From Atribacterota bacterium (GTDB lineage: Bacteria > Atribacterota > Phoenicimicrobiia > Phoenicimicrobiales > Stramentimicrobiaceae), in NCBI GenBank assembly GCA_028703475.1, contig JAQVMU010000006.1:1-41043 (forward strand): 41,043 bases of DNA, given 5' to 3'. The translations under genes and the position numbers were made by a program. The notes beneath the pieces are model-generated. The model was given only the letters and a program-made list of their open reading frames with translations. It was not told the origin of the DNA and searched no databases. Positions 5,507 to 28,923 of the stretch are shown in pieces (within the stretch, counting starts at the first letter, position 1; each line of letters begins with the position of its first letter).

Positions 5507-6232
5507 TTATATTTCAATTTTCTTTATTTTTTTAATCTCATTCGGAGTAAGATATCTGTATTTTCCTGTTTCTAAATTCTCAATAGTCAAGAATCCTATT
5601 TTTATTCTTTTTAATCTTACTACATTAAATCCAATATATGAAAGCATTCTTCTGATTTGCCTTTTTTTACCCTCATGAATTGTTATTTGCAATATAGAAT
5701 TATCTTTATTTTTTCTAAGAATTATAGATTTGCATGGACTTGTAGTAAAATTCTCTGTAAGCGGTATACCTTTCTCCAGTTGTAATAAATCATTTTGGCT
5801 AGGATATCCTTTTATTTTAACCACATAGATTTTTTGAACACTTTTTTTAGGATGAGTCAAATGGTGAATAAGATCTCCATCATTTGTTAAAAAAACAAGC
5901 CCTTCTGATAGATAGTCAAGCCGTCCTGCATAATTTACTTTTGTTTTAATGTCCTTTAATAAATCATATATGGTTGGTCTTCCAAAAGGGTCATGTCGTG
6001 TACAAAGGTATCCTCTTGGTTTATTTAAAATTATGTAAATATTTTTTTGTTTTTTCTTGATTACTTTATCATTTACTTTTATTATATCAATTGCCGGGTC
6101 AATTTTCGTACCAAGTTTTGTCACAACTATGTTGTTTACTTTTATCTGCCCCTGTACAATTAAATCTTCACTTTTTCTTCTTGAATCAATACCGTTATTG
6201 GCTAAGTACTTTTGTAATCTTACTTTCATCAT
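5507..6232 (-). CDS. rluB: 23S rRNA pseudouridine synthase (RluB/RsuA family)
   Basis: Isomerises a uridine in rRNA to pseudouridine. An N-terminal S4 RNA-binding domain (RLQKYLANNGIDSRRKSEDLI, then GQIKVNN) is followed by the RsuA/RluB catalytic domain: INKPRGYLCTRHDP-type segment near residue 70, catalytic Asp in YAGRLDYLSEGLVFLTNDGDL near 100, and a basic GKKRQIRRML near 195. I chose ATG 6232 (241 residues): GGGA lies 7 nt before it. The frame is open from a TTG at 6253. The gene overlaps the end of scpB by about 38 nt, which suggests coupled translation. RluB rather than RsuA is inferred from the scpAB neighbourhood. Confidence 0.88.
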   Translation of the reverse strand: MMKVRLQKYLANNGIDSRRKSEDLIVQGQIKVNNIVVTKLGTKIDPAIDIIKVNDKVIKKKQKNIYIILNKPRGYLCTRHDPFGRPTIYDLLKDIKTKVNYAGRLDYLSEGLVFLTNDGDLIHHLTHPKKSVQKIYVVKIKGYPSQNDLLQLEKGIPLTENFTTSPCKSIILRKNKDNSILQITIHEGKKRQIRRMLSYIGFNVVRLKRIKIGFLTIENLETGKYRYLTPNEIKKIKKIEI

Positions 6233-6770
6233 CACCAATTCCCAACTGCTCAATAGGAGGTAAATCTGAAATGCTTTTCAACCCAAAATGTAGCAAAAAT
6301 TTTTCTGTTACTCTGTATAATAATGGATTTCCCGGCATTTTCTTTCTCCCACAAATCTTTATAAAATCATGTTTTAACATATTAAGCAATATACTACTGG
6401 AGTTTACTCCTCTTATTTTTTCTATTTCCATACGTGTTGCCGGTTGGTTATATGCAATTATTGCTAAAGTTTCAATAGATGCTTTAGACAATATATATTT
6501 TTTTTCATTATTATACAATTTCTTAACCCACTGGGAATAATCCGGTTTAGTAGCAAATGAAAACCCCCTGGCAACCTCTTGAATAAAAAATGGTCGATCA
6601 TTTTCCAGATATTCACCCTTAAGCTCATCAATTATCAGTTTTATCTCTTTACTTTCTTTACCGGTAATTTCTTTAATTTTCTTTATTGGTATAGGTTTAT
6701 TTGACAAAAAAAGTAGTACTTCAATTATTCTTTTCCAATTATTTTGTGATTTATTTTCTTCTTTGCTAAT
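6195..6770 (-). CDS. scpB: Segregation and condensation protein B (ScpB), start codon unclear
   Basis: Kite-family partner of SMC-ScpA in chromosome condensation; two winged-helix domains. Recognisable parts are KPIPIKKIKEI near the start, EVARGFSFATKPDYSQWVKKL, and the second wing LSKASIETLAIIAYNQPATRMEIEKIRGV with KICGRKKMPGNPLLYRVTEKFL. The first conventional start, TTG 6707, cuts into the first helix. In the same frame upstream, codons read NWKRIIEVLLFLS, matching the conserved ScpB N-terminus, and the frame stays open to a TAG at 6774-6776 with no ATG, GTG or TTG. An ATT at 6768-6770, preceded by AAAGG, is the best candidate start (191 residues). The gene would then overlap scpA by 46 nt. 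Confidence 0.85.
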   Translation of the reverse strand: MSKEENKSQNNWKRIIEVLLFLSNKPIPIKKIKEITGKESKEIKLIIDELKGEYLENDRPFFIQEVARGFSFATKPDYSQWVKKLYNNEKKYILSKASIETLAIIAYNQPATRMEIEKIRGVNSSSILLNMLKHDFIKICGRKKMPGNPLLYRVTEKFLLHFGLKSISDLPPIEQLGIGDDESKITKVLSQ

Positions 6771-7501
6771 TTCCTATCATCCTTTCTATAAAATATAATA
6801 TCTCCAAAATTTATAGATTGTCTATAATATACTTTACCCTGGCATATTAATTCTAATAAAGCTAAAAATGTCACAATTATTTCTATTTTTGTATAATTAT
6901 TGGCAATCAATTTATAAAAAGATAATTTTCCATTATTATGTTTAAAGCTATTTTCAATCTCAGCAATTTTTTGGACAATATTGTATTCCCTTTTTTTTAT
7001 ATTGATAGTTTTATATTCTTTTTTTCGAGATAATACAGCTTCAATTGCTAAAATTAAGTCAGAATATTCATTCTGTTTGAATCTTTCTTCTTGCTCTATC
7101 TTTGGATCCAGGTACGTTAAATAAATATCTTTTTGTTTGTTTTCCCTATCTTCAAGTATTTTAACTAAGGAGTGGTATTTTTGATATTCAACCCAAAGTT
7201 CTTCGTTGGATATACTATTTTCAATGTCATTTTCTGTATCTTCCATGTCATTGTTAACCGGTAATAACAAGTTAGACTTCCAAAGTATTAGATTTGAAAT
7301 AGAAACAAGAAAATCAGCAACAATATCTATATTTATTCCCTTTGCCGGTGTTAAAATAATATATTTTAAATACTCCTCAATTATTTCTAATAAAGAAATT
7401 TCGTTTGGGTCAATTTCATTGTTTTTTGCTTTATAGAATAATTGCTCTACTGAAATACCGTATTGTTCTATTTTTACATTGTTTACTTCATTTTTTTTCA
7501 T
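6725..7501 (-). CDS. scpA: Segregation and condensation protein A (ScpA)
   Basis: Kleisin subunit that bridges SMC heads. The 258-residue protein has the N-terminal family block NNEIDPNEISLLEIIEEYLKYI near residue 28 and VADFLVSISNLILWKSNLLLP near 65. It has a charged linker and a C-terminal winged helix (IEIIVTFLALLELICQGKVYY near 205, INFGDIIF near 230). Its ATG overlaps the trpS stop as ATGA, showing tight coupling. The last 15 or so residues are basic and lie over the proposed scpB start. The usual FEGPLDLLLHLI segment is replaced by a diverged YGISVEQLFYKAK. Confidence 0.93.
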   Translation of the reverse strand: MKKNEVNNVKIEQYGISVEQLFYKAKNNEIDPNEISLLEIIEEYLKYIILTPAKGINIDIVADFLVSISNLILWKSNLLLPVNNDMEDTENDIENSISNEELWVEYQKYHSLVKILEDRENKQKDIYLTYLDPKIEQEERFKQNEYSDLILAIEAVLSRKKEYKTINIKKREYNIVQKIAEIENSFKHNNGKLSFYKLIANNYTKIEIIVTFLALLELICQGKVYYRQSINFGDIIFYRKDDRKLAKKKINHKIIGKE

Positions 7502-8487
7502 GCATAGTCTATTTTCATAGCCTTTCGAACATCGATTAAAGTCTGCCTGGTTACCTTTCTAGCATCCTGACTCCCTTTCATTAATATTTCCCAGACTAAT
7601 TTAGGATTATTTTCATAATAATGTCTTTTTTCCCGAAAAGATTGAAAGGTATTAACTAAAACTTCTGCCAATCTTTTCTTACATGCCACACACCCCAATT
7701 TAGCATTTCTACAATCTTTTTCAATATTTTTTATCTCGTCCTGGTTAAAAATATCATGATATCTAAAAACTACACATACTTTGGGATGTCCGGGATCGGA
7801 CAATCTTATTTTTTTTGGGTCTGTAATCATTGAAAGAACTTTAGTTTTTATATCTTCTGGCTTATCAGATAGAGTAATATCATTTTTCAAACTCTTACTC
7901 ATTTTTTTTCCATCAGTCCCAGGTATTCTGGGAGTATGTGACAGTTTTAGCTTTGGAATTGGAAATACAGGACTATAAAGATTATTAAAACGCCTGGCTA
8001 TTTCACGAGCTAATTCAACATGGGGTGACTGGTCTTCCCCTACCGGTACAGCATTAGACTTATAAATTAATATATCAGAAGCCATCAATACTGGATAGCC
8101 AAGAAGACCATATCCCATATTATCTTTTAGATTAAGATCACGAACCTGCTCCTTTAGTACAGGGTTTCTTTCCAGCCATGCTAATGGTGTAATCATTGAT
8201 AATAATAAATGAAGTTCGGCATGCTCCGGAACTTGGGACTGTATTAATATAGTGCTTTTATCAGGATCAATTCCAGCACTTAGCCAGTCTGTAACCATTT
8301 CTATCATATTTTCCTTAATATCTGATGTATCCTCATAACCTGTTGTAAGTGCGTGCCAATCTACTACTCCAAAATAGCACTTGTAATTATTTTGTAGTTT
8401 AACCCAATTTTTAAGTGCTCCATAATAATTACCTATATGCAGTCTCCCAGTGGGCCTCATTCCGCTAAAAATAATGCCTTCTTTCAT
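7498..8487 (-). CDS. trpS: Tryptophanyl-tRNA synthetase with Fe-S-type cysteine motif
   Basis: Class I synthetase charging tRNA-Trp. The HIGH-type motif is RLHIGNYYGAL near residue 15 and KMSKSLKND lies near 196, so catalytic signatures are intact. Length is 329 residues, normal for bacteria. Four cysteines at about residues 238, 259, 266 and 269 are spaced C-x20-C-x6-C-x2-C; the last three match the positions known to hold a [4Fe-4S] cluster in Thermotoga maritima TrpRS (from memory). ATG start with AAAGGAGG, the strongest ribosome-binding site of this run. Its stop overlaps the scpA start. It lies 78 nt after the M50 peptidase gene. Confidence 0.96.
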   Translation of the reverse strand: MKEGIIFSGMRPTGRLHIGNYYGALKNWVKLQNNYKCYFGVVDWHALTTGYEDTSDIKENMIEMVTDWLSAGIDPDKSTILIQSQVPEHAELHLLLSMITPLAWLERNPVLKEQVRDLNLKDNMGYGLLGYPVLMASDILIYKSNAVPVGEDQSPHVELAREIARRFNNLYSPVFPIPKLKLSHTPRIPGTDGKKMSKSLKNDITLSDKPEDIKTKVLSMITDPKKIRLSDPGHPKVCVVFRYHDIFNQDEIKNIEKDCRNAKLGCVACKKRLAEVLVNTFQSFREKRHYYENNPKLVWEILMKGSQDARKVTRQTLIDVRKAMKIDYA

Positions 8488-8565
8488 TTATATTTTTGCC
8501 TCCTTTGTATGCAAATTATTTTATTTAAAAATTAATTATATATAATGATTTTTATCTTTCTTTGA

Positions 8566-9216
8566 TTATGTTAAAAAACGAAAGATGTAAAAAGCAATTG
8601 GAAATATTACTTTCCCAATAATACCAGTCCAAATCAGCATTAATAAAATTAACATCCCGTAAGTACTATTTATTTTAGAATATATCTTTGCCCATTTTAT
8701 TGGTAAAATACCAATTGCAATATGATGACCATCCAGAGGTGGTACTGGTATTAAATTGAAAAATGCCAGGACTAAGTTAATCAAAATTCCTGTTTGTAAA
8801 AAAATAATCCATCCCCTTATAAGGGTTAATACAAGATTTGGTATATTACCAAGTGCACTATAAATAATATTTTGTAAAAATAAATTATTAATCCGGTAAA
8901 TGATGGAAAATAAAAAAGCTATTAAAATATTTGATATTGGGCCAGCTAAAGAAACCTTTATCATGTCTTTTCTGGGATTTCTTAAGTTTCCATAATTAAC
9001 CGGAACGGGCTTTGCCCATCCAATTCTAAACATAATCAACATTATTGTTCCTATTGGATCCAAATGCGCTATAGGATTTAACGTTAATCTTCCCGCTAAT
9101 TTTGCCGTAGGATCTCCATAATAATAAGCAGCAAATCCGTGAGCATATTCATGAAAGGTTATAGCTATTAATACAGCAGGTATACTCCATATAATTTCAA
9201 AAATATTATTTATCAT
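8566..9216 (-). CDS. M50-family membrane metalloprotease (site-2 protease, YwhC-like)
   Basis: Membrane-embedded zinc protease of the compact YwhC type, without a PDZ domain. The 216-residue protein has the zinc motif HEYAHG near residue 22, the family block GDPTAKLAGRLTLNPIAHLDPIGT near 34, and the third metal ligand in NLIPVPPLDGHH near 155. About five hydrophobic segments are visible. Substrate is unknown. It follows the DHH-CBS-nucleotidyltransferase gene by 8 nt, so both are probably on one transcript. The ribosome-binding site is poor (AAAGGGAT more than 12 nt from ATG). This family often sits between tRNA-nucleotidyltransferase or pyrimidine phosphorylase genes and trpS-scpAB in anaerobes. 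Confidence 0.9.
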   Translation of the reverse strand: MINNIFEIIWSIPAVLIAITFHEYAHGFAAYYYGDPTAKLAGRLTLNPIAHLDPIGTIMLIMFRIGWAKPVPVNYGNLRNPRKDMIKVSLAGPISNILIAFLFSIIYRINNLFLQNIIYSALGNIPNLVLTLIRGWIIFLQTGILINLVLAFFNLIPVPPLDGHHIAIGILPIKWAKIYSKINSTYGMLILLMLIWTGIIGKVIFPIAFYIFRFLT

Positions 9217-9224
9217 AATATATA

Positions 9225-11864
9225 TTAAACAATCCCTTTTTCTATAATTTTTTTGACAAAATCCAACTCATCATCCTTATTCTTTAAAATACCATTTAGC
9301 TGGAGGTATAATATCAGTTTTAATATTTTAGCATAAATCGGGTTGGGTCTCATACCAATTTTGATTAAATCATTCCCCGTTATATAAGTAGATGTATATT
9401 TATAAATATCCAGGTAATCTTTAATTCTTTTAATTATTGTTTCATTATTATAGTTTTCTAAAAATAGAATAAATAATAATTCATTATTAATACTTTTTAG
9501 ATAATAATAGATATTGCTTGGCAATGTTTTCTTATCTTTCAAAATAGAAACAATTAATTCTTTCTCATCAATAATATTTTCTAATATTTTTATATTTTTA
9601 CTATTTAACTCAATTTTCTTTGTAATGTTCTTTATTCCTATATCTGAGAGTTTCAGTAAATAATATATATATATCATACTTTTATTAATGATTTCTTTTG
9701 GGAATCTTTCATGCCATCTAATTAGTATTTCTTCTACTTCTTCCAATCTTTTTACCAAATCATCGCTCAGTGAAAATTTTGGTATTATTCCAGAAAGAAC
9801 TCCCAACTCATCCATTCTTTTAAGAACTTTTACTGGTTTTTTTTCATGTAATAATATAAAAAATTCCTCGCTTAGTCTTTTTTTCCTAATCTTAGATAGC
9901 AAACCTTCTTTTATTGCTTTTTTTAAAAATTTTTCAGTTGATTGTTCAATTGTAAAATCATACCTTTGTTCAAATCGAATCGCTCTTATTATTCTAGCCG
10001 GGTCCTCAGTAAAACTAAGACTATATAAAATCCTTATTTTTTTTGACTCTAAATCTCTTTTACCGCCAAAAAAATCAAGCAATCTTGCAAACTTATCTTC
10101 ATTTAATTGTATAGCCATAGCATTTATAGTAAAATCCCTTCTATATAAATCCTTTTTTATAGAAGCAAATTCAACCTTTGGCAATGCAGCAGGAAACTCA
10201 TAGAATTCTCTTCTTGCCGATGCAAAATCAATTTTTAGTCCACTTGGTAAAACAACAACAGCCGTTTTAAACTTTTGATGTGACCTTATTTTTCCTTTTA
10301 ATTTATTACTAAAATAGCGGGCAAATTTTAAAGCATCTTCTTCAATGACAATATCAAGATCTAAACTTGGTATTCCTAAGAATAAGTCTCTTACAATACC
10401 CCCCACCATAAAAACAGAATAACCTAATTCATCACCTGTTTTTCCTATGTAATACAAAATCTCAAGTATGTCCCTGGGAAAATATTTTTGAATCAGGTTT
10501 TTAATATTCTCTTTTCTTAAATTATAGTGTCCATTATTATTTTCATATATTGTATATGATTCTCTATTGATATCTTTTTCCCCATAAAGACTTCTGATTA
10601 AGTCTGTTCTTGTAATAATTCCTTCCAATTTTCCGTCTTTACTTAAAACCAGTACCCTTCCAACATCATATCTAATCATTAATTCCTGTATCTCTAATAT
10701 CGGGGTATCTAAATTTACACTAATAATATTTTCTGACATATAAATATCTATGGTTTCATTTTCATAATGATGATGATTAGCTTTATAAATTTCCTGACGG
10801 GTAATAATGCCAACCAGTTTATTTTTATCCATTACAGGAAAGCCATTGTGTCCATAGCGCAACATAATCTTAGAAGCTTCTTCTATAGTTGTATTAACAT
10901 CTAAACTTTTCACTGGACTGGTCATGATATCTTTCGCTATTGTTTCAATTTTTATATAATTATTTAGTGTTTTTTTTATTTTGTCTTCAACTTCCGATAG
11001 GGATATCTTTCTTACTACTGCTGATGCAGCTTGAGAATGCCCACCACCACCAATACTTTTCATTACGTCTCCAACATTTACATTTGCTCTATTGCTCCTG
11101 CTAACAACATAAACCCTGTTTTTCATTTGAACTAAAACAAAAATTATGTCACTGTTTAGAATTTCAAGCAATTTGTGTGTAACGAGGGCTAACCCCTCTA
11201 TATATTCTTTTGTTTTACTTTTTGCAAAAACTACACTGATTCCTTTAAAATAAATTTCCTGAGAACTTGAAATCAATTGGTTTAAAAGTTTCTTTTGTTG
11301 TATATTCAAACCTGTGTTTGTAAATTTATTAACAGTCCTTAAATTGACACCAATCGAAAAAAGATACCCTAATACATCTATATCTTCTTTAGTAGTTGTG
11401 GAAAAACTCAAAGAGCCGGTATCTTCATAAATTCCCAGAGCAAATATTGTTGATTCTAAAGATGTTATTGGTATTTTCTTTTTGATTATTAACTGTAATA
11501 ATATTGTGGTTGTCGCGCCAACCTGTTTTATGATGTTATTTTTTGAAACAATATCATTATCAGAGGCTGGATGATGATCATAAATTCTTATTTTTATATT
11601 TTTTTTATTTAATAATAATTCAAACGGTCCGATTCTATCTTTTTGTCTTGTATCTACAATAATAATTTCGGAAATATTATCCATATCAATATGCTTTAAA
11701 GAAGATATATTCAAAGTATTCCCATATAGCGAAAGGAACTTTCGAACATTTTCCTCTATTGCCCCTGGAAAAACAACTACAGAATCAGAATATATTTTTT
11801 TTGCAGCAATCATGGAGGCAAGACAATCGAAATCTGCACTTGTATGACCAATGATTACCTTCAT
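9225..11864 (-). CDS. DHH phosphoesterase / CBS pair / tRNA nucleotidyltransferase fusion
   Basis: An 879-residue multidomain protein. Residues 1-300 form a DHH-DHHA1 phosphoesterase: GHTSADFDCLAS near 6, VDTRQKDR near 70, IYDHHPAS near 94, EDTGSLSF near 150 and GGGGHSQAAS near 275. Residues 310-430 hold two CBS domains (DIMTSPVKSL and YMSENIISVN). From about 470 comes a class II poly(A) polymerase/CCA head: VFMVGGIVRDLFLG, the metal pair in LDLDIV, and RRDFTINAMAIQL near 580, then FGGKRDLESKKIRILY and DPARIIRAIRFEQR. The rest is helical. The head probably adds CC, A or CCA to tRNA 3' ends; which cannot be told here. The DHH part resembles NrnA-like nano-RNases and may trim RNA. ATG with GGAAGAG upstream. 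Confidence 0.92.
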   Translation of the reverse strand: MKVIIGHTSADFDCLASMIAAKKIYSDSVVVFPGAIEENVRKFLSLYGNTLNISSLKHIDMDNISEIIIVDTRQKDRIGPFELLLNKKNIKIRIYDHHPASDNDIVSKNNIIKQVGATTTILLQLIIKKKIPITSLESTIFALGIYEDTGSLSFSTTTKEDIDVLGYLFSIGVNLRTVNKFTNTGLNIQQKKLLNQLISSSQEIYFKGISVVFAKSKTKEYIEGLALVTHKLLEILNSDIIFVLVQMKNRVYVVSRSNRANVNVGDVMKSIGGGGHSQAASAVVRKISLSEVEDKIKKTLNNYIKIETIAKDIMTSPVKSLDVNTTIEEASKIMLRYGHNGFPVMDKNKLVGIITRQEIYKANHHHYENETIDIYMSENIISVNLDTPILEIQELMIRYDVGRVLVLSKDGKLEGIITRTDLIRSLYGEKDINRESYTIYENNNGHYNLRKENIKNLIQKYFPRDILEILYYIGKTGDELGYSVFMVGGIVRDLFLGIPSLDLDIVIEEDALKFARYFSNKLKGKIRSHQKFKTAVVVLPSGLKIDFASARREFYEFPAALPKVEFASIKKDLYRRDFTINAMAIQLNEDKFARLLDFFGGKRDLESKKIRILYSLSFTEDPARIIRAIRFEQRYDFTIEQSTEKFLKKAIKEGLLSKIRKKRLSEEFFILLHEKKPVKVLKRMDELGVLSGIIPKFSLSDDLVKRLEEVEEILIRWHERFPKEIINKSMIYIYYLLKLSDIGIKNITKKIELNSKNIKILENIIDEKELIVSILKDKKTLPSNIYYYLKSINNELLFILFLENYNNETIIKRIKDYLDIYKYTSTYITGNDLIKIGMRPNPIYAKILKLILYLQLNGILKNKDDELDFVKKIIEKGIV

Positions 11865-13337: not shown

Positions 13338-15302
13338 TTATAAGAATAACGGTATAAAAACTAAAGCCACTATGGACATTACTTTAATTAATATATTCAT
13401 GGATGGTCCTGCTGTATCTTTAAACGGATCACCAACTGTATCACCAATAACTCCTGCTTGGTGAGCAGGAGAGTTTTTACCGCCAAAATTACCTTTTTCA
13501 ATATATTTTTTTGCATTATCCCAGGCACCACCTGAATTAGCCATCATGATAGCTAAAAATACACCCACAACTACAGATCCCAGCAATAGTCCACCCAGTG
13601 CTTCCGGTCCTAACAAAACACCAACTAAAATAGGAGCTATTATTGCGATTAATCCTGGTATAATCATTTCTTTTAATGCGCCTTTTGTACTAATATCGAC
13701 GCATTTCTCAGGTTCAGGTTTTGAAGTACCTTCCTTTAAGCCGGGAATTTCTTTGAATTGTCTTCTGACTTCTGCAATCATTAGTGATGCAGTTTTACCC
13801 ACTGCTTCAATTGTCATAGAAGCAAAAAGAAAAGGCAATATCGCCCCAAGGAAAATACCAATCATAACCATGGGATTTGTAATACTAATAACACTTAGCT
13901 CCACAGATTTACTATATGCCGTAAATAGTGCCAGGGCTGTTAATGCTGCTGAACCAATTGCAAATCCTTTACCAATTGCTGCAGTGGTATTCCCAACAGC
14001 ATCCAGGGAATCAGTAATCTCTCTTACTTCCGGTTTTAACCCGGCCATTTCAGCTATACCACCTGCATTGTCTGCAATTGGGCCATAAGAGTCTACTGAT
14101 ACAGTCATTCCTACAATGGAAAGCATTCCCACTGCTGCTACAGAAATACCATATAATCCGGCAAAATAATGAGAAATATAAATTGCCAAACATATTATAA
14201 TTATAGGTAATGCGGTACTTTTTAGTCCCACAGCAAATCCTTCCAAAATCGTCGTAGCAGGTCCAGTCAGAGAGGCTTCAGCTATCTTTTTAACAGGAGA
14301 ATAATCATATGAAGTGTAATATTCTGTAATTAAACCAATAACTACTCCGGCAACTAACCCGGAAACTGTAGCAAAAAATATAGTTATAGAATTAAATAAC
14401 ATATAAGATAAACCTAATGATGCAATTAATACTAATGCTCCACTAATATAGGTTCCTGAATTTAATGCTTTATGAATACTCTGATCATCTTTTGGAGAAA
14501 TAAAAAAAGTTGCAATAATTACTGAAATAATGCCGCAAGCTGCAAGAATTAATGGGTATATAACATAATTAACTGAGTCATGCAGAATAACCCCCAAAAT
14601 CATACAAGACAAAATAGAGCCTACAAATGATTCAAATAAGTCTGCACCCATTCCTGCCACATCTCCTACATTATCTCCCACATTATCTGCAATAACAGCA
14701 GGATTTCTTGGGTCATCTTCGGGTATTCCTGCTTCTACCTTACCAACTAAATCTGCACCAACATCTGCAGCTTTTGTGTATATTCCTCCACCTACTCTTG
14801 CAAATAATGCAATTGAACTTGCACCTAAGGCAAATCCGTTAATAAGATTTGGGTCTTCAAAAAAGTAATACAGAGCCCCCAATCCTATTAAACCAAAACC
14901 TGCTACTGATAAACCCATAACAGCACCTCCGGAGAAAGCAATTTTTAGTGCCTTTGCCATTCCTGATTCCTGGGCTGCAAATGTAGTTCTTGTGTTTGCT
15001 TTAGTGGCTATTTTCATACCAATATATCCTGCTAAGGCAGAGCAAGCTGCCCCTAGAATAAAAGAAATACCGGTTATTCCCCCTCTAACCCAAAAAATAA
15101 TAATAGCAATTATTGCAACAAAAAATATTAAAATTGAGTATTCCCTTTTGAGAAATGTCATAGCACCTTTCTCGATAGAGCCTGATAGTTGTTGCATTAA
15201 ATCATTTCCCGGTTTTTCTGAAACCACATTTTTTGCAAGCACCATAGCATAAAATAATGAAATTAAACCACTTACAATAATCATTAGCTTTATTACAGTC
15301 AT
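13338..15302 (-). CDS. hppA: Membrane-bound ion-pumping pyrophosphatase (K+-dependent type)
   Basis: Hydrolyses cytoplasmic pyrophosphate and pumps Na+ or H+ out. The 654-residue polytopic protein (about 16 hydrophobic segments) has the substrate-binding block [22 protein letters not shown] near residue 192, [20 protein letters not shown] near 217, and the C-terminal [21 protein letters not shown] near 620. The segment [10 protein letters not shown] near residue 436 has Ala where K+-independent enzymes have Lys, so this is the K+-dependent subfamily, which includes Na+ pumps. The transported ion cannot be fixed by eye. ATG with AGGAG 9 nt upstream. ppdK, a pyrophosphate-linked enzyme, lies just upstream. 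Confidence 0.95.
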
Positions 15303-15515
15303 TTTTTTTAACTCCTTTATTTAACTAATAAAAATATACTTTTAATCTTTAATTGATAATATTATTGACTATTTTATACACATATAATACTTTATATTCC
15401 TATATTAACTACTAAATTACAAGGTGGCTTCCTTTTTAAAATTAATGGAAACCACCTTGTATTTACAATTATTACATAACTAATATATTTTTAATGCTAT
15501 ATTAATTTTTCAGTT
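15303..15515. other. Intergenic region between ppdK and hppA
   Basis: Contains the inverted repeat at 15418-15461 and AT-rich sequence upstream of hppA that should hold its promoter. No box pair stands out clearly, and no small gene is seen. Confidence 0.5.
15418..15461 (-). terminator. Hairpin downstream of ppdK
   Basis: A 15-bp stem (15418-15432 with 15447-15461, one G-U pair on the minus strand, core CAAGGTGG/CCACCTTG) and a 14-nt AT-rich loop. On the minus strand it lies about 55 nt after the ppdK stop. The following sequence ATTTAGTAG is a poor T tract, so it may be a leaky terminator or a 3'-end-protecting hairpin. Confidence 0.5.
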
Positions 15516-18155
15516 TTATTCTTTTAACACAGCATGAGCAGCAGATAGTCTGGCTATTGGAACTCTAAATGTAGAGCAGCTTACATAATTCAATCCTACT
15601 TTATGGCAAAATTCAACTGAGCTTGGTTCTCCCCCATGTTCACCACATATACCTACTTCTAAATCAGGTCTTGTTTTTCTTCCCAATTCTGTTCCGGTTC
15701 TTACTAATTTTCCAACTCCATCGACATCCAATACTTCAAAAGGATTTTCTTTTAAAATTCCCTCTTCAACGTATTTTAATAAAAATTTCCCTTCTGCATC
15801 ATCCCTGCTTATACCAAAAGTTGTTTGGGTTAAGTCATTAGTTCCAAATGAGAAAAATTCCGCATATTCTGCAATTTCATCGGCTGTTAATGCAGCTCTG
15901 GGTAACTCAATCATGGTTCCCACTTTATATTCAAGTTTTACGTTTTTATCCTTAATAATCTTCTCAGCAATTTGTTTTGTTTTGTTGTAAATAGGTTTCA
16001 ACTCATTGATATGGCCAATTAAAGGAATCATTATTTCTGGTTTTATATTTATACCATTATCCTGCAATTCTACACTGGCTTCGATAATAGCCCTCACTTG
16101 CATCTCATAAATTTCAGGATATAACAAACCTAAGCGACAACCTCTCAATCCAAGCATAGGATTCATTTCCTGTAACATCCTTATTCTTTCAAGAATTTTT
16201 TCCTGTTTGTCGAGTTCTGCCTTATTTTGTGGTTTTTCTAATCTTAATTTTGTAACATTTACTAATGTTTCTTCAAAATTAGGTAAAAATTCATGTAAAG
16301 GGGGATCTAGTAAGCGAATAATAACCGGTAACCCTTGCATTGCTTTTAATATACCTAAAAAGTCGCTTTTTTGCATTGGAAGCAATTTGTCTAATTGTTC
16401 CTGTCTTGCTTTTTTCGTATCAGAAATAATCATAGCCTGTACAATTGGAAGTCTCTCAGGTGCCATAAACATGTGCTCTGTTCTGCATAAACCAATACCT
16501 TCAGCACCCAGATCTCTAGCTTTTTGAGCATCTTCAGGTGTATCAGCATTAGCATATACACCAAGTTTTCTGATTTCATCAGCCCAGGAAAGGAGTAATT
16601 TAAATTCTTCACTCATTTTCGGCTCTATCATCGGAACTTTACCTTTATAAACATTTCCAGTTCCACCATCTATTGTAATATATTCACCCTTTTTAACAAC
16701 TTGATCATTTTTGATAGTAAATATCCCTTTTCCGGAATTTATAGCAATATCGCTGCATCCTGCTACACATGGCATACCCATACCTCTTGCTACAACTGCT
16801 GCATGGCTTGTCATACCCCCACGACTTGTTAAAGTTCCTTTAGATGCAACCATTCCATGAATATCATCCGGGGTTGTTTCAGTTCTGACTAATATAACAT
16901 CTTCACCATTTCCCCCCATTTCTTCAGCTTCATCAGCTGTAAAAACAACTTTACCACTTGCTGCCCCTGGTGAAGCAGGTAATCCTTTTGCTATAACCGT
17001 AATATCTGCTTCCGGATCAATTCTTCTATGTAGTAATTGATTAAGCTGAATTGGTTCAATTCTCATCACGGCTGTTTCTTTATTAATTATTCCCTCTTTA
17101 ACCATATCAACTGCAATTTTTAATGCAGCTTGCGTAGTACGTTTACCTGTTCTGGTTTGTAATAGATACAGTTTATTCTTTTCAATTGTAAATTCATAAT
17201 CCTGTACATCTTTATAATTATTTTCCAATATTTTTACAGTTTTTATTAATTCATCATATACTTTTGGCATATCATTTTTTAATTCATCTAAATGTTTTGG
17301 TGTTCTAATGCCAGCTACAACATCTTCTCCCTGTGCATTTAATAAATATTCACCATAATTTTCTTTTTCACCAGTTGAAGGATTTCTGGTAAATCCAACA
17401 CCAGTGCCTGAATCGTAACCCATATTTCCAAATACCATTTCCTGTACATTAACTGCTGTCCCTAAATCATCAGGTATTTTATTGATTTTACGATAAGTTA
17501 TTGCACGCTTATTATCCCATGAGCTGAATACTGCTTCTATAGCCATATTTAACTGTTGTTTAGGATTATCCGGAAATTCTCTTCCAGTTTCTTTTTTAAC
17601 CAACTCTTTATACTTTCTAACAATTTCTTTTAAACCCTCAGTATCGATATCGGCATCAATTTCTACTTTCTGCTTTTCCTTAATCATCTCCAGTATTTCT
17701 TCAAAAAATTCACTCTTTATTCCCATTACAACATTTCCAAACATCTGTATGAATCTTCTGTAGCTATCATATGCAAATCTTTCATCTTTTGTTTTGCTGA
17801 TAATTCCCTGAATTGTGTTTTCATTCAATCCAAGGTTTAGAATTGTATCCATCATACCAGGCATTGAAATTGCTGCTCCTGAACGAACTGAAACTAATAA
17901 TGGGTTTTCTGGGTCTCCAAAAATTTTACCAGCGTTTTTTTCTAATGTTTTTAGGTTTTTATCGATTTGTTCAAGTAATCCTTCTGGAAATTTATTATCG
18001 TTTGTATATTCGATGCAAGCCTCTGAAGTAATTGTAAAACCTTTGGGAACTGGTATTCCCATTTTAGTCATCTCAGCTAAATTGGCACCTTTACCACCTA
18101 ATAATTTTTTCATGTCTTTATTTCCTTCATCGAAGAAATAAACGTATTTTTTCAT
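15516..18155 (-). CDS. ppdK: Pyruvate, phosphate dikinase (PPDK)
   Basis: Reversible conversion of PEP, AMP and pyrophosphate to pyruvate, ATP and phosphate; in many anaerobes it works in glycolysis as a pyrophosphate-using pyruvate kinase. The 879-residue protein has the full layout: nucleotide-binding domain starting KKLLGGKGANLAEM, FTRNPSTGEKENYGEYL near residue 255, and the swivelling phosphohistidine domain with catalytic His in GGMTSHAAVVARGMGMPCVAG near 450. The PEP-binding barrel follows, with GLCRTEHMF near 555, GLRGCRLG near 680 and FSFGTNDLTQTTFGISRDD near 770. ATG with GGAG about 10 nt upstream; own promoter proposed at 18203-18231. Neighbouring hppA suggests a shared pyrophosphate economy. 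Confidence 0.97.
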   Translation of the reverse strand: MKKYVYFFDEGNKDMKKLLGGKGANLAEMTKMGIPVPKGFTITSEACIEYTNDNKFPEGLLEQIDKNLKTLEKNAGKIFGDPENPLLVSVRSGAAISMPGMMDTILNLGLNENTIQGIISKTKDERFAYDSYRRFIQMFGNVVMGIKSEFFEEILEMIKEKQKVEIDADIDTEGLKEIVRKYKELVKKETGREFPDNPKQQLNMAIEAVFSSWDNKRAITYRKINKIPDDLGTAVNVQEMVFGNMGYDSGTGVGFTRNPSTGEKENYGEYLLNAQGEDVVAGIRTPKHLDELKNDMPKVYDELIKTVKILENNYKDVQDYEFTIEKNKLYLLQTRTGKRTTQAALKIAVDMVKEGIINKETAVMRIEPIQLNQLLHRRIDPEADITVIAKGLPASPGAASGKVVFTADEAEEMGGNGEDVILVRTETTPDDIHGMVASKGTLTSRGGMTSHAAVVARGMGMPCVAGCSDIAINSGKGIFTIKNDQVVKKGEYITIDGGTGNVYKGKVPMIEPKMSEEFKLLLSWADEIRKLGVYANADTPEDAQKARDLGAEGIGLCRTEHMFMAPERLPIVQAMIISDTKKARQEQLDKLLPMQKSDFLGILKAMQGLPVIIRLLDPPLHEFLPNFEETLVNVTKLRLEKPQNKAELDKQEKILERIRMLQEMNPMLGLRGCRLGLLYPEIYEMQVRAIIEASVELQDNGINIKPEIMIPLIGHINELKPIYNKTKQIAEKIIKDKNVKLEYKVGTMIELPRAALTADEIAEYAEFFSFGTNDLTQTTFGISRDDAEGKFLLKYVEEGILKENPFEVLDVDGVGKLVRTGTELGRKTRPDLEVGICGEHGGEPSSVEFCHKVGLNYVSCSTFRVPIARLSAAHAVLKE

Positions 18156-26780: not shown

Positions 26781-28923
26781 TTTGATTTCTTTCCTTTTTT
26801 AATTTATTAATCAATTCCTCATCCGGATATTCTACTCTATTATGAAACATGCCAGTTAATATTCTAGAGAAAACATCTTTTATTTTATCTAAATCTCTTA
26901 AGGTTAGATTACATTCATCTAATTGTCCATTTTCCAAATTTCTTTTTACAACATTCTGGGTTAAATTTTTTATCCTGCTAGAAGTAGGATTATTGAGTGT
27001 ACGGGCTTCTGCCTCAAGAGAATCTGCTAATAATATTATACCGGCTTCCTTTGTTTGCGGCTTAGGTCCTGAATATCGATAGTTTTCTTCATTAACAGAT
27101 GTGTTTTTTGATTCATTAGATTGTAAAGCACGATGGTAAAAATAGGTAATTAAACCAGTTCCATGATGCTGGTTTATAATATCAATAATTGCCTTTGGTA
27201 ATTTGTATTTTTTGGCTAAATCCACTCCGTCTTTAACATGAGAGGCAATTACCAACGCACTTAAACTTGGCTCCATGTCATCATGTGTGTTTTTATAAGC
27301 TTCCTGGTTTTCGGAAAAAAAGTATGGCCTTTTTAGTTTTCCAATATCATGATAATAAGCCCCAACACGTGTTAACAGAGAGTTTGCGCCTATCTCTTCA
27401 GCTGCTGTTTCTGCTAAATTACCTACTACAACACTATGGTGATATGTTCCCGGAGCTTCTACTAATAACTGCTTTAATAAAGGTTGATTTGGATTTGATA
27501 ATTCCATTAATTTAAATGATGATGTTATGTCAAAAAAACTTTCTAAAAAGGGAAGTACACCAATAGTTAATATTGCTGAAATAAAACCGTTTAGCGCACC
27601 CCACATACTATTTTCTAATAGTGACTGGGGAGAAGATCTTTGAACCAGCCCAAGCGCAAGGATTGTAAATATATTGGTAGCAGCAATCAGAAGGCCTGCC
27701 CTGGTGAGATTAGATCGCTGAGTAGCTTTACGGATACTAAAAATTGAAATAAATCCTCCAGCTAAAGCAACTATCATATAATTTATTTCACCTAAAAATA
27801 TAAACCCAATATTTGAACTTATAATAAAAGTCATCCATAATGCCAACCTTGAATCGATAGTGATGGCTATCAGCATTGAAGCAGATGCAACTGGAATTAG
27901 ATATCCGGAAATTTCTCCTGAAACCTTTGCAATAAGAATAATGGAAATATATATTATACTTAACAAAATAAGTTTATTTACATCATCGAATATTTTTTTA
28001 TGAAATGTAAATATATAAAGTCCAATTAGAAAAATAAACAAAGAGTCTATAAAAAATAATCCAAGTATATTTTGGTAATGTAAAATCGGGTTTTGCAATC
28101 CCAATGCCTTCATTTTTTCTATATGTTCAGCATTTACTATCTCACCTTTTCTGATAATTATCTGGTCTTTTCTTATAATACTTTTAACATCTCTTACTGC
28201 GTCTATAGAATCCTGTATTTTCTTTTCTGTTGCCTCTATATCCAAAAATAAACTGGGTTTCAAAAAAGACTCTCCCATTTCACTGGCAATAATGGCCAGA
28301 TATGGGTTTGTGGCTTGTTCACTTATTTCTCTTGCAATTTGTTTTTTTGCCTCTTCAATATCTGCCTCTTTAATACCCTGTTCCATGATTTTTCTTATAG
28401 ATAAAAATAGCCATTGTTCAATTTCCTGAAGTGAATCAGTATCAATTGTTATCAAATTGCTTATTGTTGAATTTTCAATGTCTAAAGAGTATTTCTCTCT
28501 TATTTCAATCAATTCATTATTATTGAAATAATTATTTACATCTCTAATCTCTAAAACGTCATTTTCGCTTTGACTGGCATTATATTCATTCCTTAACTCT
28601 TTTAAATCAGCAAAAAAGTTACTAAGTTCATTTTCTACATTTTCAATACTGGCAAGATTTAAATTGTAAACTTCTCTTATTGATTTTGCTGCTTCTTCTT
28701 TTAATTTTACTGTCGCGTTTTCATCTGTATATTCAATGGTTTCTCTCGCAATAATATCCTTAGTAGCAACTTCGCCTTCTTTTAGTGTTACTCTTCCAGG
28801 AATAAAATTAATAGACAAAATAAATGTAATTGACAACACAAGAAGTAAAAATATTATTAGTTTTTTCAGGATACTTTTCTGAAAAATATTACGAGCATTT
28901 TTTGTGAATTTATCTTTTTTCAT
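26677..28923 (-). CDS. pgpH: 7TM-HD cyclic-di-AMP phosphodiesterase (PgpH/YqfF family)
   Basis: Membrane protein whose cytoplasmic HD domain hydrolyses c-di-AMP in characterised members. The 748-residue chain has an N-terminal membrane segment (residues 20-40) and an extracytoplasmic 7TMR-HDED domain (about 50-280, starting GRVTLKEGEVATKDI). About seven membrane helices span 285-470. The HD domain has GTYHHSVVVGNLAETAAEEIG near 492, AYYHDIGKLKRPYFF near 528, ASHVKDGVDLAKKYKLP near 560 and NQHHGTGLITYFYHRA near 585. The last 40 residues are Asn/Ser/Lys-rich and overlap ybeY. phoH overlaps its start by 14 nt. The order phoH-pgpH-ybeY matches Firmicutes. Confidence 0.93.
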   Translation of the reverse strand: MKKDKFTKNARNIFQKSILKKLIIFLLLVLSITFILSINFIPGRVTLKEGEVATKDIIARETIEYTDENATVKLKEEAAKSIREVYNLNLASIENVENELSNFFADLKELRNEYNASQSENDVLEIRDVNNYFNNNELIEIREKYSLDIENSTISNLITIDTDSLQEIEQWLFLSIRKIMEQGIKEADIEEAKKQIAREISEQATNPYLAIIASEMGESFLKPSLFLDIEATEKKIQDSIDAVRDVKSIIRKDQIIIRKGEIVNAEHIEKMKALGLQNPILHYQNILGLFFIDSLFIFLIGLYIFTFHKKIFDDVNKLILLSIIYISIILIAKVSGEISGYLIPVASASMLIAITIDSRLALWMTFIISSNIGFIFLGEINYMIVALAGGFISIFSIRKATQRSNLTRAGLLIAATNIFTILALGLVQRSSPQSLLENSMWGALNGFISAILTIGVLPFLESFFDITSSFKLMELSNPNQPLLKQLLVEAPGTYHHSVVVGNLAETAAEEIGANSLLTRVGAYYHDIGKLKRPYFFSENQEAYKNTHDDMEPSLSALVIASHVKDGVDLAKKYKLPKAIIDIINQHHGTGLITYFYHRALQSNESKNTSVNEENYRYSGPKPQTKEAGIILLADSLEAEARTLNNPTSSRIKNLTQNVVKRNLENGQLDECNLTLRDLDKIKDVFSRILTGMFHNRVEYPDEELINKLKKERNQSDSSNKKQTEKEAKFSDNRKNINNSNGSNGDKKE

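Follow-up and report, generated by a model that had tools for sequence, protein, structure and literature searches.

DHH-DHHA1 architectures occur in tRNA nucleotidyltransferases (NTs) (PMC12709177), and a CCA-adding cluster has been described among DHH-DHHA1 proteins (PMC9757072). For the class II CCA-adding enzyme of T. maritima, PMC8208693 gives the Nrn and CBS domains as not required for CCA addition. A shortened loop is described as a hallmark of bacterial CC-adding enzymes, and, as far as PMC3925840 and PMC7014341 go, swapping in a longer loop does not always restore A addition. The DHH/CBS/NT architecture is therefore already in print, and the protein described here is a further member, encoded in the window, that is, the whole stretch of 41,043 nucleotides that was analysed, which is contig C6 of a 1.79-Mb Atribacterota genome. 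A literature search that covered few subscription papers found none in which the DHH or the CBS part of a fusion like this had been assayed.

Domain architecture of the fusion protein

The gene is a single uninterrupted open reading frame on the minus strand of the window, beginning with ATG and encoding 879 residues. Its parts are listed below, all Pfam domain calls exceeding the curated cut-offs.

9225..11864 (-): whole fusion gene, DHH-DHHA1 / CBS pair / class II tRNA nucleotidyltransferase, 879 aa
11430..11858 (-): DHH domain, residues 3-145 (Pfam, 4.1e-10), with H7, D11, D13, D71 and D96-H97-H98; D148 lies just behind the domain
10950..11183 (-): DHHA1 domain, residues 228-305 (Pfam, 2.5e-10), with R256 and GGGGH at 272-276
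10581..10937 (-): CBS pair, about residues 310-428 (Pfam, two repeats; best 310-362, 3.4e-31; the end of the second repeat is an estimate)
Residues 415-421: GxxT/SxxD signature in the second CBS repeat
10512..10580 (-): low-confidence linker in the AlphaFold2 model, residues 429-451, separating the CBS pair and the NT part
10032..10412 (-): NT head (PolyA_pol), residues 485-611 (Pfam, 2.2e-28), with motif A GG..RD/LDLDIV, a full-length loop and motif B RRDFTINAMA
Within the NT head: ARREFY, read as the B/A motif
Residues 620-624: motif D EDPAR, directly ahead of the RNA-binding domain
9774..9959 (-): RNA-binding domain (PolyA_pol_RNAbd), residues 636-697 (Pfam, 1.8e-9)

An earlier note on this DNA had read the protein as three joined parts with intact motifs, and this description holds: the parts lie in one frame, and DHH (96-98), GGGGHS, LDLDIV and RRDFTINAMA were all found. 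The AlphaFold2 model has a mean pLDDT of 89.9, and the linker is the sole segment below 50; the placing of the parts relative to each other is uncertain in this model because its pTM is 0.65.

A scan of named genomes found the fusion at no fewer than 80 loci in several phyla, and 88 fused proteins, namely nine from Atribacterota (the window's included) and 79 among the matches listed, could be aligned; L128, which has no clean frame, was left out of the alignment. Since it recurs across several phyla and its members align, the fusion is not a chance join, and the earlier note's remark that the architecture exists in other bacteria agrees with these loci and with the T. maritima precedent in PMC8208693.

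Conservation of the DHH-DHHA1 part and its likely substrates

In DHH-DHHA1 proteins, the residues H, D, D / D / DHH / D and GGGH bind metal, and this set is complete in the window protein. Because the two peptide patterns used in the scan sit in the DHH domain, residue counts over the 88 proteins are biased to intact DHH, and the DHH count was therefore repeated on a set retrieved solely by the NT domain. All 14 checked DHH/DHHA1 positions are kept in each of the 25 Atribacterota proteins that reach the DHH region; the 29 Nitrospirota proteins (from L346-L375) that do so keep them as well, with two exceptions: every one of them has E at position 148, and one row is gapped at positions 7, 11 and 13. 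The DHH region was not reached by four of the 29 Atribacterota and one of the 30 Nitrospirota proteins fetched in this way, and these were left out of the counts. Loss of metal-binding residues, which the earlier note had named as evidence that would tell against it, was thus looked for and not found, apart from the replacement of D148 by E in other lineages. Given that the metal site is still present, with these exceptions, in a set chosen without regard to DHH, the DHH part is probably active as a predicted metal-dependent phosphodiesterase.

Selection was compared by Nei-Gojobori dN/dS, which was 0.04-0.13 for DHH-DHHA1, 0.02-0.16 for the CBS pair and 0.05-0.28 for the NT part. Both extra regions were below the NT part in all eight of the nine pairs that gave a ratio; the ninth gave none because its synonymous sites are saturated. 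Three of the remaining pairs have a dS above 1 in one domain or more, and as lineages recur among the pairs, these are not independent. The lower ratios indicate that the extra domains are maintained.

The top Foldseek matches were the CCA enzyme of T. maritima together with 4wby and 1vfg, A-adding entries that we take to be the enzyme AaL of A. aeolicus, followed by GdpP, TM1595, DhhP and NrnA, the relatives nearest to the DHH-DHHA1 part, whose alignments of about 320 columns have the length of the N-terminal part. The earlier note had called the domain RNA-trimming-type; trimming of tRNA 3' ends is weakened, since NrnA of B. subtilis degrades RNAs of 2-4 nt in the 5'-3' direction and is poor on pAp (PMC9757072). 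The DHH part might instead be a tRNA 3'-end repair phosphatase or phosphodiesterase, clearing damaged ends before A addition like the HD domain of the E. coli and M. tuberculosis CCA enzymes. Such a role would fit the phosphohydrolase (HD) domain with phosphatase activity known in a tRNA NT (PMC10673834), the lack of any HD domain among the Pfam matches of the fusion protein, and the conservation and purifying selection of the DHH part, yet the characterised DHH-DHHA1 relatives cleave short RNAs or cyclic dinucleotides (PMC9757072), and we consider it quite unlikely. The DHH-DHHA1 part would rather be a DhhP/NrnA-type phosphodiesterase acting most likely on very short RNAs or adenine-containing dinucleotides, not on tRNA ends to be trimmed.

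The genome encodes a diadenylate cyclase and two other DHH proteins, of which one, a standalone DHH-DHHA1 protein, resembles NrnA in size and layout, so that the DHH part of the fusion need not serve ordinary nanoRNA decay, and the second is read as RecJ. A PgpH-type 7TM-HD protein, with an open frame of 761 aa, lies at 27520-28074 (-) of the window. Hydrolysis of c-di-AMP was considered as the main role of the DHH part, in view of its near relatives GdpP and DhhP and of the diadenylate cyclase, and was lowered by the PgpH-type protein and the standalone DHH-DHHA1 protein. Because of the two other DHH proteins, the diadenylate cyclase and the PgpH-type protein, the DHH part more likely has a substrate peculiar to the fusion than a role in general nanoRNA or c-di-AMP turnover.

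The CBS pair as a putative sensor

The GxxT/SxxD ribose-phosphate signature marks adenine-nucleotide binding. In the 88 aligned fusions, 79 of them among the matches listed, it is kept only in the second CBS repeat, where G415 is present in 87, T or S at 418 in 85 and D421 in 86 (the other two having E); the first repeat is without an acid at 358. By analogy, the CBS pair is a probable, though putative, adenine-nucleotide sensor, as the earlier note had supposed, and the bound nucleotide might modulate the polymerase, the nuclease or both.

CBS-pyrophosphatases belong to the DHH superfamily. As CBS-pyrophosphatase responds to adenine nucleotides, with AMP/ADP as inhibitors and ATP as an activator (PMC11172384), the CBS pair may sense a ligand for the DHH part only, leaving the NT part unregulated; the low-confidence linker of the predicted model, which sets the CBS pair apart from the NT part and not from DHH, points the same way. 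This arrangement is somewhat unlikely in our judgement, as it is opposed by a genome from another family of Atribacterota (G024), which keeps a CBS-NT fusion of 570 aa (L051 1101-2813) without DHH in that gene, followed by M50-like and trpS-like genes. The G024 gene also counts against the necessity of the DHH part.

The nucleotidyltransferase part

Motif A DxD, motif B RRD and motif D EDxxR, by which class II NTs are recognised, are all present in the fusion. D502, D504, R551, E553, R575-R576-D577, D621 and R624 occur in all 88 aligned fusions (79 among the matches listed), and position 620 is E in 87 and D in one. Motifs A and B lie 88 residues apart, a distance shared with most of the other long enzymes (88 in 27 of 30 long proteins, 89 in two and 87 in one), and because of this spacing the fusion is not of the short-loop CC type. 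L024 and L025 (from G032 and G031), which the motif pattern missed and which stand outside the spacing, tree and DHH-conservation counts, were read separately and have the 88-residue spacing, DFD, DHH and YEDTG.

The NCBIfam model NF041569, "A-adding tRNA nucleotidyltransferase", aligns to residues 1-875 (1e-223), at 745.3 bits against an equivalog cut-off of 1440, which is reached by a single one of six further fusions scanned, L130 from Geomobilimonas (1830). The best solved relatives by sequence are the T. maritima CCA enzyme (1.2e-81) and the A. aeolicus A-adding enzyme (3.1e-56), and in the NT-domain tree the T. maritima homologue groups with fusions whose genomes mostly have two enzymes, though the support is modest (86). 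A-specificity is not given by sequence alone, because the CCA-adding T. maritima homologue is closer than the A. aeolicus enzyme and groups with these mostly two-enzyme fusions.

PcnB models also match the NT part, as would be expected of a poly(A) polymerase. That the fusion is such an enzyme is nevertheless extremely improbable, for it scores only 94.9 bits against a cut-off of 305.65 for TIGR01942 PcnB, its full-length match to NF041569 is far better, and its branch in the tree is separate from that of the E. coli PAP fragment.

A second class II enzyme and its distribution in Atribacterota

A second class II NT was sought in the genome, as the earlier note had proposed, and was found on contig C2 as a protein of 437 aa (L002 649-1962, minus strand), which matches the CCA and PcnB models only under their cut-offs. 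The question whether the fusion adds CC, A or CCA, which that note had left undecided, is thereby shifted towards A. Among 26 Atribacterota genomes with a completeness of at least 90%, both enzymes occur in eight of the 11 belonging to the window's order (families f1 and f2), where PF01743 matches at two places, in a long and in a short protein; each of the other three showed one match, which is the long protein in G005 and G012 and a 61-aa fragment in G019. Elsewhere in the phylum, all 15 genomes have one class II NT, of the fusion type (14 with an open frame of 866-907 aa, the remaining one with 678 aa).

Short partners of the neighbouring family f2 have a motif A-to-B spacing of 77-80 in eight of nine, with 87 in L034, whereas the seven of f1 have a spacing of 85-92 and an unconserved loop. 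The 437-aa partner, with a spacing of 85, lacks a clean loop deletion, its motif B is SRDFTIDS where relatives have RDFTIN, and its end branch in the NT-domain tree measures 0.46 versus 0.13 for the fusion. This partner may be drifting, and its fast evolution could be a sign of being lost.

These features lend themselves to another reading, in which the fusion, like its T. maritima homologue, would add the whole of CCA, with the 437-aa protein as a CC-biased helper or an enzyme being lost. It draws on the T. maritima enzyme being the closest solved relative, on the single fusion-type NT of the phylum's other families, and on the long branch and changed motif B of the partner, but is opposed by the retention of that partner in most genomes of the window's order; on this evidence, together with that of the tRNA genes given below, we hold it to be unlikely. 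Instead, we read the fusion as one half of a split system, the half that adds A76, because a second class II NT is present and the f2 partners have, with one exception, the short loop typical of bacterial CC-adding enzymes.

Encoded 3' ends of tRNA genes

tRNA genes were classed by the letters at positions 74-76, located with the help of the paired acceptor stem. For the window's genome, 40 genes were read against 41 in the Rfam listing (G000, L052-L081, L275-L283); for the other genomes, the better-scoring Rfam matches and their neighbours were used, which are part of each set, and one G011 candidate with too short a tail and within-genome duplicates were excluded. CCA is encoded in 148 of 169 sampled genes of nine two-enzyme genomes, leaving 21 without it, and in 86 of 86 of six fusion-only genomes (Fisher p = 1.5e-4, with genes treated as independent, although by descent this is about one contrast).

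The two families differ in what is missing. In f1, 12 of 75 genes are without CCA, ten of these having CC followed by T, whereas in f2 CC is kept in none of the nine (of 94) without CCA. C74 and/or C75 are hence missing in 11 of the 21 non-CCA genes (two in f1, nine in f2), so that C addition is needed in two-enzyme genomes, which fits a retained CC enzyme and speaks against the fusion as a complete CCA enzyme. The window's genome has five of 40 genes without CCA, all ending in CC-T (Arg-tct, Arg-tcg, Glu-ttc, Leu-taa and Pro-cgg), and the terminal A must be added de novo to these five tRNAs because their genes encode CC and then T. De novo C addition is required by none of the 40, a count that favours the complete CCA enzyme.

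Other phyla and descent

In 35 fusion-bearing genomes drawn from the loci found by the scan, at least one further class II NT was present in 27 and none in eight; six of the further NTs group with E. coli PAP, and in all six genomes concerned there is an additional NT besides. In Nitrospirota, the phylum of L101, a search with the NT part matched in all 41 genomes. Reading the rows by eye, we count 36 genomes whose strong match falls within an open frame of 558-1058 aa, and a further place is present in 31 of these 36.

On a 60-protein tree, made of those 35 fusion-bearing genomes and 25 Atribacterota proteins of at least 800 aa, the one- or two-enzyme status changes at least seven times, six of them forced by starred branches, a number inflated by incomplete metagenome assemblies, in which a genome can wrongly seem to have one enzyme. 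Atribacterota rows were given the state of their family (f1 and f2 two, f4-f7 one), though G001, G005 and G012 showed one match. The NT-domain tree splits the Atribacterota fusions in two groups, with the window's order joining other phyla (SH-aLRT 94, not starred); a single origin of the Atribacterota fusions was not rejected (p-AU 0.397).

Genomic neighbourhood

Downstream of the fusion gene, the window continues on the same strand with a peptidase gene and genes read as trpS, scpA and scpB (6195-11864, minus strand), the first two being:

8566..9216 (-): M50 peptidase gene, 8 bases downstream of the fusion gene
7498..8487 (-): class Ib aminoacyl-tRNA synthetase, read as tryptophanyl (trpS), Pfam tRNA-synt_1b

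Among the 79 loci in the matches listed (L082-L161), the 61 with at least 2500 bases downstream have M50 in 24, trpS in 20, scpA in 28, scpB in 26 and rluB in 8. Upstream, at 13338-18155 (-), lie genes that presumably encode a membrane pyrophosphatase (654 aa) and a pyruvate phosphate dikinase (879 aa), as read from sequence, and these would suggest a pyrophosphate-linked energy metabolism.

Proposed function and comparison with known systems

On balance, the fusion is probably an A76-adding NT working beside a CC-supplying partner, with an active DHH phosphodiesterase and a CBS pair as adenine-nucleotide modulator. Its NT part would add and repair the terminal A76 on tRNAs ending in CC, and the separate 437-aa enzyme would supply C74C75 where needed. 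A bolder proposal, which we regard as speculative and rather improbable, is that within Atribacterota the same three-part enzyme has switched between adding the whole CCA and only the final A; that, with a CC partner at hand, selection to encode the tRNA end was relaxed, A76 being the position chiefly lost where genes of the window's family have lost any; and that the DHH and CBS parts couple tRNA completion to the adenylate state and to adenine-containing RNA breakdown products. Since Atribacterota has relatives with and without the partner, and one gene without DHH, both the proposed change of specificity and the function of the additional domains are directly testable.

Several described systems resemble parts of this arrangement. 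NrnA, DhhP, TM1595 and GdpP share the fold and metal-site motifs of the N-terminal part and are not joined to CBS or NT domains. The A-adding enzyme AaL of A. aeolicus is, like the fusion, a class II NT with a CC-adding partner alongside (PMC3925840), but its solved chains (390-410 residues) match the NT part only. The nearest solved relative of the NT part is the T. maritima class II CCA-adding enzyme (3h37, 3h38, 5hc9), whose native protein also has Nrn and CBS domains (PMC8208693). The T. maritima work consulted omitted these extra parts, the solved chain having 441 residues and the sequences in PMC8208693 being trimmed for trees, whereas here the extra parts have a lower dN/dS than the polymerase. 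The T. maritima enzyme acts alone and adds CCA (PMC3925840), in contrast to the fusion described here, whose genome has a second class II NT.
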